Origin: Nymphaea colorata
Lineage: Eukaryota; Streptophyta; Magnoliopsida; Nymphaeales; Nymphaeaceae
Assembly: GCF_008831285.2 (NCBI RefSeq)
Contig: NC_045138.2
Coordinates: forward strand, 29,049,934-29,113,933
Length of the DNA stretch: 64,000 nt
Reading direction: 5' to 3'
Made by a program: the position numbers and the translations under genes. Position 1 is the stretch's first letter. Every line of letters begins with the position of its first letter. The notes beneath the pieces were generated by a model. That model was given only the letters and a program-made list of their open reading frames with translations, searched no databases and was not told the DNA's origin. Shown piece after piece: positions 37,876 to 39,460 of this stretch.

Positions 37876-39146
37876 TAGATGCCAAACGTGCTCTGAAGCT
37901 TACAGAATTGGATGCCCTTCCATCAGCATTCTACTTCCTGATTCAGGAAAGGTTTTTTAGTTATGTTGAAGAGCAATGCCACTCTTATCAAGAAAGGCAA
38001 CTTGGGGTAGAAAAACCTGAGGTGAATGAGTTTGCAATAATATAGGAACCGGTGCTAAGTAGTAGAGAAATATCATTCTCTCGATGCCCAGATCCTGTAG
38101 GGTCCAATTTGTATTTTTATGGCAGCTGCGTCAAATTAATTGACTTCTGATTGAAGTTTTAAATTCATTCAATGCCATTTAACTCTTTGTTTTCAAGTGA
38201 CATAAGGTAGTAAATTTGATACGTATGGTGTTCAGTTTTTTTCCTGGAAGATAATTTATCCTTGACATTTCTACTACTGGCATCACTCTGTACGAGTTTC
38301 TGCTGAAAGCTTCAAGGTCAACTTGGTTTATAAAAGCTAGCAATAGTTGATGCTAAATAGTTATATGGTGCTTGAGATACAAGGGAACACAAATGAGGGA
38401 TTGGATGCTTGCTCCAAATCATCTTATATTGAAGTATAACTGCTTAAGTGATTACTTTATAGTTTATATACACAAGCTCTTGTGCATCTGGCAGCTGAAA
38501 GGATATTGCTTACATTTCTCACTCTTGTAGTTATCTGCTACCCATTACAGAGCTGTAATGTTCATATGGTGATCCGAAGTGATCTGATCGGCTGTTGAGA
38601 ATCTCTTTAGTCATGGGTAGTGAATGACTGGATGCAGATTTCTTCTTCATGCTTTTGAAATCTAACATCTGTGGAGGCCATAAGGGAGACCATTTGGAGA
38701 CCTTGGCCCACTATCTCTTGGAAGGTGGTGCCATCAAGTGACAGTGCATGTCCACCACCAGCTTCATTACTAACCATTGAAATGACTACTGCAATATTCA
38801 TTCACGCAAGTTCTCATGTGGAGGGGCTTGTGCTTTATACTGTCCTCTCTATTTCTTAAAAATCTTCACCATTCCACGGTTTATTGTTACTATCTGAGGC
38901 AAATATAATGACAATCATATAACATGTTTAATTGGTTGAGACATAACATCTGGCCGACTGTAGTAGAAACATGCATTGGTTCTAGAGGAACTCTGATTTG
39001 TGGAAACGTGCATTAGTAGAAACTTTATTTATTCACCTATCAACATACGATACGGGGTACACAGCTATAATTTTCAGATGACACCCAAGTGATATAGTTG
39101 GCCATGATAAAGCTCTTCAGGCACGGTTGGTGGATGCAGGTTCTCT
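37876..39146. other. Convergent intergenic region between the YebC-family gene and CCD8
   Basis: Contains both 3' UTRs and the degenerate duplicate of the CCD8 terminal exon (separate entry). Nothing else coding is recognised. Confidence 0.6.
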
Positions 39147-39460
39147 TCATGTTTTTGGTATCCAACACCCATGAAGGCCATAAGGAAGACCATATGGAAA
39201 CCTTGCCCTTGCTATCTCTTGGAAGGTGGTGCCATCAAGTAACAGTGCATATCCACCACCATCTCCTGCACTGACCATGGAAATGACCACTCCTGCAAGA
39301 TCTCAGTCATGTAAGTTTTCATATTCAGGGCTCATGCGTTGCTTATTCCTTTGTCTTCAAAGAAACATTTTATTGTTACTAATTGAGACAAAATTTTGAC
39401 AAACATGTATTATTCTTAAATTGTTTAATCAGTGGAAAGTGGAAACATAAAATGCTGTTG
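38580..39460 (-). repeat. Tandem duplication of about 0.5 kb covering the CCD8 terminal exon
   Basis: Two diverged direct copies are offset by about 500 bp, roughly 38580-38960 and 39095-39460. Both contain the exon block (for example GGAAGGTGGTGCCATCAAGT at 38720 and 39221 on the plus strand). Both have downstream GGATGCAG near the 3' end and share the upstream TTTATTGTTACTA block near 38880 and 39370. The copy nearer the upstream exons is intact. Edges are estimated by eye. Confidence 0.88.
38607..38788 (-). pseudogene. Degenerate second copy of the CCD8 terminal exon
   Basis: After a retained AG acceptor (38790-38789) the copy reads VVISMVSNEAGGGHALSLDG then TTFQEI, clearly homologous to the real last exon (VVISMVSAGDGGGYALLLDG). 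A one-base deletion just after FQEI shifts the frame, so the conserved FPYGLPYGLHGCW end is lost and the frame runs on to a stop at 38607. Three bases are also missing right at the acceptor, which keeps phase with exon 5. It is either a dead duplicate or an alternative terminal exon that would give a product lacking the last iron-ligand histidine. Confidence 0.85.

Follow-up and report, generated by a model that had tools for sequence, protein, structure and literature searches.

The window analysed here is a stretch of 64,000 nucleotides of DNA from Nymphaea colorata. It carries a six-exon gene on the minus strand (39147-43209), which has GT/AG borders, encodes 556 aa and is assigned below to CCD8. 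The 3' exons of a TACO1/YebC-like gene (37237-37875, plus strand, PF01709) converge on it. The stop codons of the two genes are about 1.27 kb apart, and a relic of the last CCD8 exon lies inside that gap. The exons were placed as follows.

42916-43209, minus strand: CCD8 exon 1, from the second Met (splice signals and translation)
41790-42533, minus strand: CCD8 exon 2, with acceptor ACAG and donor GTAAGC
40640-40833, minus strand: CCD8 exon 3 (splice signals and translation)
39751-39940, minus strand: CCD8 exon 4 (splice signals and translation)
39542-39644, minus strand: CCD8 exon 5 (exon model), with no second copy by tblastn in the window at E ≤ 10
39147-39292, minus strand: CCD8 exon 6, the intact terminal exon, translated as VVISMVSAGDGGGYALLLDGTTFQEIARARFPYGLPYGLHGCWIPKT followed by the stop codon and ending GLHGCWIPKT

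The 556-aa model is 100% identical over its length to the annotated N. colorata CCD8 homolog B (P0002, 563 aa), which begins 7 residues further upstream, at 43230. Of 423 homologues the best 120 include this protein, and the remaining 119 share 68-79% identity with the model. Many of these are named CCD8 and others are only hypothetical plant proteins. The Pfam RPE65 domain PF03055 matched residues 78-554 with 325.6 bits. His-549 of the model, which lies in the intact exon 6, aligned with RPE65 His-527, and all of the 120 homologues listed (the best of 423, counting the N. colorata protein itself) carry His at this position. We take RPE65 His-527 to be the fourth iron ligand and CCD8 H549 to be its equivalent. 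Identity to the annotated protein and the RPE65 domain thus bear out the name CCD8 given in an earlier reading of the sequence alone, and support the view that this is a strigolactone-synthesis gene of the RPE65/carotenoid oxygenase family. Plant CCD8, also known as MAX4/RMS1/D10/DAD1, would be expected to make carlactone and control branching. The six-exon model, the 556/563-aa protein and the range of identity to the 119 homologues liken the gene to plant CCD8, and nothing unusual was seen in the encoded protein. The only difference noted from plant CCD8 is the relic of the terminal exon downstream.

We searched 38000-40200 against the window with BLASTN. A direct match was found between 38629-38825 and 39131-39330 (79.7% identity over 202 columns, E ~2e-43), with a second, weaker block at 38880-38937 and 39369-39425. 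A wider alignment of 39008-39545 with 38482-39041 gave 396 identical positions in 503 ungapped columns (78.7%). Its score was 1016, and the maximum of 300 dinucleotide shuffles was 476. The features of the duplication are listed below.

39058-39506, minus strand: core of the inner copy of the duplicated unit (copy 1), from the alignment; stretchable to 39008-39545, ends uncertain
39024-39033, minus strand: putative poly(A) signal AATAAATAAA at the junction between the copies; its first hexamer is 113 nt after the CCD8 stop
38546-39000, minus strand: core of the outer copy (copy 2), from the alignment; stretchable to 38482-39041
38647-38788, minus strand: relic of exon 6, from alignment and translation, with its end and inner positions taken from the 500-nt offset

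The unit of about 500 bp consists of the end of intron 5, exon 6 and the 3' flank of CCD8. The two exon 6 copies are in the same orientation with an offset of 500-502 bp (~501). BLASTN and the wider alignment therefore agree with the earlier claim that the last exon is present twice, directly repeated about 500 bp apart. Identity was 78.0% in the intron part (223 columns), 84.6% in the exon (143 columns) and 73.7% downstream (137 columns). When exon 6 was left out, the intron flank scored 344 (best shuffle 241) and the 3' flank 189 (best shuffle 156), with 300 shuffles for each. Since both flanks exceed all 300 shuffles, identity is not confined to the exon, and intron and downstream sequence were duplicated alongside it, as had been proposed. 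The outermost 30-60 bp at both ends of the alignment are too diverged to place the exact breakpoints, which are lost. Copy 2 starts about where copy 1 stops, so the unit was duplicated head to tail. These direct, adjacent copies with common flanks confirm that the CCD8 3' end carries a head-to-tail tandem duplication.

Tandem CCD duplicates occur in plants, and the outer copy could accordingly be all that is left of a complete second CCD8 gene in tandem, its remaining exons having been lost by deletion. We consider this very unlikely. The homology begins within intron 5 or, at the furthest, in the last bases of exon 5; the position at which copy 2 starts also speaks against a remnant of that kind. 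When the CCD8 protein was searched against the window by tblastn (E ≤ 10), exon 6 was the only exon with a second copy, and no trace of exons 1-5 was found downstream. The sole other match in the window was at 55012-55071 (E 2.8). A whole-gene tandem duplicate was rejected on this result.

We also used 39131-39330 as a DNA query on the whole genome (407.8 Mb, 783 contigs). It was found at two places only, which are the two exon 6 copies (2 candidates, both scored); genome-wide counts of this kind are lower bounds for repeats. A protein search of the genome gave 10 matches. Six of them are the exons of CCD8 itself, and the other four, with 24-37% identity, are distant relatives; the search thus found a single CCD8 locus. 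With only two places for the DNA query, there was no sign of a dispersed repeat or of a duplicate of the whole gene, and both a dispersed repeat and a second CCD8 locus were rejected after the DNA and protein searches of the genome. The probability that the outer copy is an assembly artefact, or a dispersed repeat carrying exon 6, is practically negligible. The copies differ by 20% plus indels, which makes mis-assembly of one locus very unlikely. In addition, the published N. colorata assembly was made from long reads (PacBio RSII, ~20-kb libraries; PMC7015852).

Exon 6 is intact in the inner copy and decayed in the outer, as the sequence-only reading had noticed. Relative to the inner copy, the relic lacks 3 nt at the acceptor, a loss that is frame-neutral. 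Near 38708-38712 its reading frame shifts by a net -1, and a W codon at 38662-38664 has become TAG when read in the old frame. The 64-aa ORF of the outer copy (P0001) had no Pfam match. The two exon copies differ in 22 of the 142 coding columns compared. By codon position the differences are 7, 6 and 9 (of 48, 47 and 47 columns), that is, about equal (chi-square p 0.68). Nine are synonymous and 13 nonsynonymous, giving Jukes-Cantor (JC) distances of 0.319 and 0.133, respectively. The ratio of 0.42 is near the 0.5 expected with the inner copy constrained and the outer copy unconstrained from birth, which is the likely history by these counts, and with just 22 exon differences the neutrality test has little power.

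We compared 11 of the 12 replaced codons (all but codon 28, which lies at the frameshift) with the best 120 of the 423 homologues. In 8 of these 11 codons the inner copy matches the most frequent residue, and no homologue has the residue of the outer copy; the comparison at codon 47 is based on the only 11 homologues that align there. Codons 8-10 are not polarisable, for neither copy has the commonest residue among the 120 listed homologues. At codon 9 the outer and inner residues are about equally common (4 versus 3 of the 120). A 29-nt stretch is identical in both copies (38711-38739 in the relic). Such a run is given by 10% of random placements, and a special meaning of it was rejected (p 0.10). 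Taken together, the outer copy is likely a decayed pseudo-exon, a harmless scar of the duplication.

The outer copy might instead be a live alternative last exon. In that case exon 6 would be skipped and exon 5 joined to 38788, giving a 568-aa CCD8 with another C-terminus. This form would not have the last iron-binding His in frame, and hence would be inactive or dominant-negative. The outer copy does retain an in-phase AG acceptor, the 3-nt loss there being frame-neutral, and the joined frame from exon 5 to 38788 is open for 568 aa. Nevertheless, we regard a live alternative exon as highly unlikely. Frame and coding constraint, which both copies of an alternative last exon should have, were not found in the outer copy: it has the frameshift and the stop in the old frame, and its 7/6/9 pattern is that of unconstrained DNA. 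The roughly 37 open codons after the shift have a chance probability of 0.17. The putative poly(A) signal precedes the outer exon. A protein search with the relic-derived C-terminus gave 11 candidates and none at E ≤ 10; the test is weak, since clustering at 90% may conceal an isoform and even the annotated CCD8 (P0002), which has part of the query sequence, was not listed.

It had also been suggested that changes at this 3' end affect polyadenylation and branching control. Nothing was found in support of such an effect. The inner copy has a full ORF and a canonical AATAAATAAA upstream of the relic, and the relic looks like unconstrained DNA by its codon-position pattern. The weak search with the relic C-terminus likewise listed no protein. 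Copy 2 itself contains more hexamers: AATAAA at 38885, ATTAAA at 38932, and AATGAA at 38802 and 38768. They are candidate alternative poly(A) sites, and may count against a model in which the transcript is cleaved at the junction.

Another explanation is that transcription from the convergent TACO1/YebC-like gene runs through the relic in antisense, and that the 29-nt identity gives rise to small RNAs damping CCD8. The layout would allow this, as the TACO1/YebC-like gene is on the plus strand with its stop at 37873-37875, and the 29-nt stretch is shared exactly by the relic and exon 6. We judge it extremely unlikely. An identical run of this length is not unusual, by the placement test given above. 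A plus-strand scan to 39500 with four hexamers found AATAAT at 38036 only, which is about 450-510 bp short of the relic. More generally, there is a very slim chance that the relic is spliced in as an alternative final exon, or read in antisense, and yields a CCD8 that lacks its last iron ligand. If true, such a form would be an inbuilt brake on the synthesis of strigolactones, specific to water lilies.

On the structure, the damage, the codon-position pattern and the single CCD8 locus described above, the outer copy very probably goes back to one intragenic tandem duplication of the CCD8 3' end and is a decayed pseudo-exon, likely unselected since. The duplication would have copied a self-contained terminal module with an acceptor, a stop codon and possibly a poly(A) signal, so that a second, identical module followed the first. 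Exon 5 would splice to the first acceptor met, which is that of the inner exon 6. The transcript would then be cut after the junction AATAAATAAA, before copy 2. The second module would hardly ever be in the mRNA, and the duplication would have had almost no visible effect when it arose. Only the inner module would then be maintained by selection, while the outer one decays. An mRNA ending at AATAAATAAA before copy 2 is thus a plausible reason for the survival of the inner copy.

Tandem duplication of an exon within a gene, with later decay of one copy to a pseudo-exon, is a known pattern. The case described here is an ordinary one, still recognisable: an exon with flanking intron was copied head to tail, one copy was kept and the other degraded. 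It differs from the usual intragenic exon duplication in that the exon is terminal, with a stop and possibly a poly(A) signal, and the outer copy would fall outside the transcript. Adjacent tandem duplicate exons, as in CCD8, are also reported for arthropod Mhc (PMC2257972) and oyster AOX (PMC5589949). There the duplicated exons were reportedly kept as alternative exons and are used in mRNAs, whereas the second CCD8 exon is broken and no use was found for it. The CCD8 locus would therefore be a small, clean example in which the fate of a duplicated terminal exon may depend on its position: whichever copy the splice donor and the polyadenylation machinery encounter first would be retained. The duplication gives no reason to expect changed strigolactone biology. 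By title, the papers found in a literature search on CCD8 tandem duplication are mostly gene-family surveys, and among the titles found on Nymphaea CCD8 and strigolactone none was on CCD8 gene structure.

To estimate the age of the duplication, we scaled the noncoding divergence between the copies (K2P 0.284, 95% 0.226-0.357) to the N. colorata whole-genome duplication (WGD). In PMC7015852 that event has a KS of ~0.9 and is dated to 107 Ma (90% interval 98-117). This suggests an age of about 34 Ma (25-46), where the range combines the sampling error and the WGD interval. The age is rough, since substitution rates vary among water lilies (PMC7015852) and dating differs between that source and PMC9670182, which places the Nymphaea crown at 80.7 Ma. 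Set against that crown age, the estimate predicts that close relatives of N. colorata would share the relic and that Victoria, Euryale and Nuphar would lack it. The relic could be a phylogenetic marker within Nymphaea.

The window was also compared with itself (matches of at least 60 bases, E ≤ 1e-8, low-complexity filter on). At about 24141-24461 there are 3.2 head-to-tail copies of a 100-bp unit with 98% matches. A diverged local duplication at 9831-10099 is a pair 136 bp apart and 74% identical. Small tandem duplications are therefore not rare here, with these two besides that at CCD8. A direct repeat at 36030-36125 is 45 bp long with a spacing of 51 and 91% identity. The pair at 9831-10099 lies just downstream of a PATROL1-like frame, which belongs to a gene piece at 10238-11185 on the minus strand (PF25761, 399.9 bits) whose reading frame ends at 10238.
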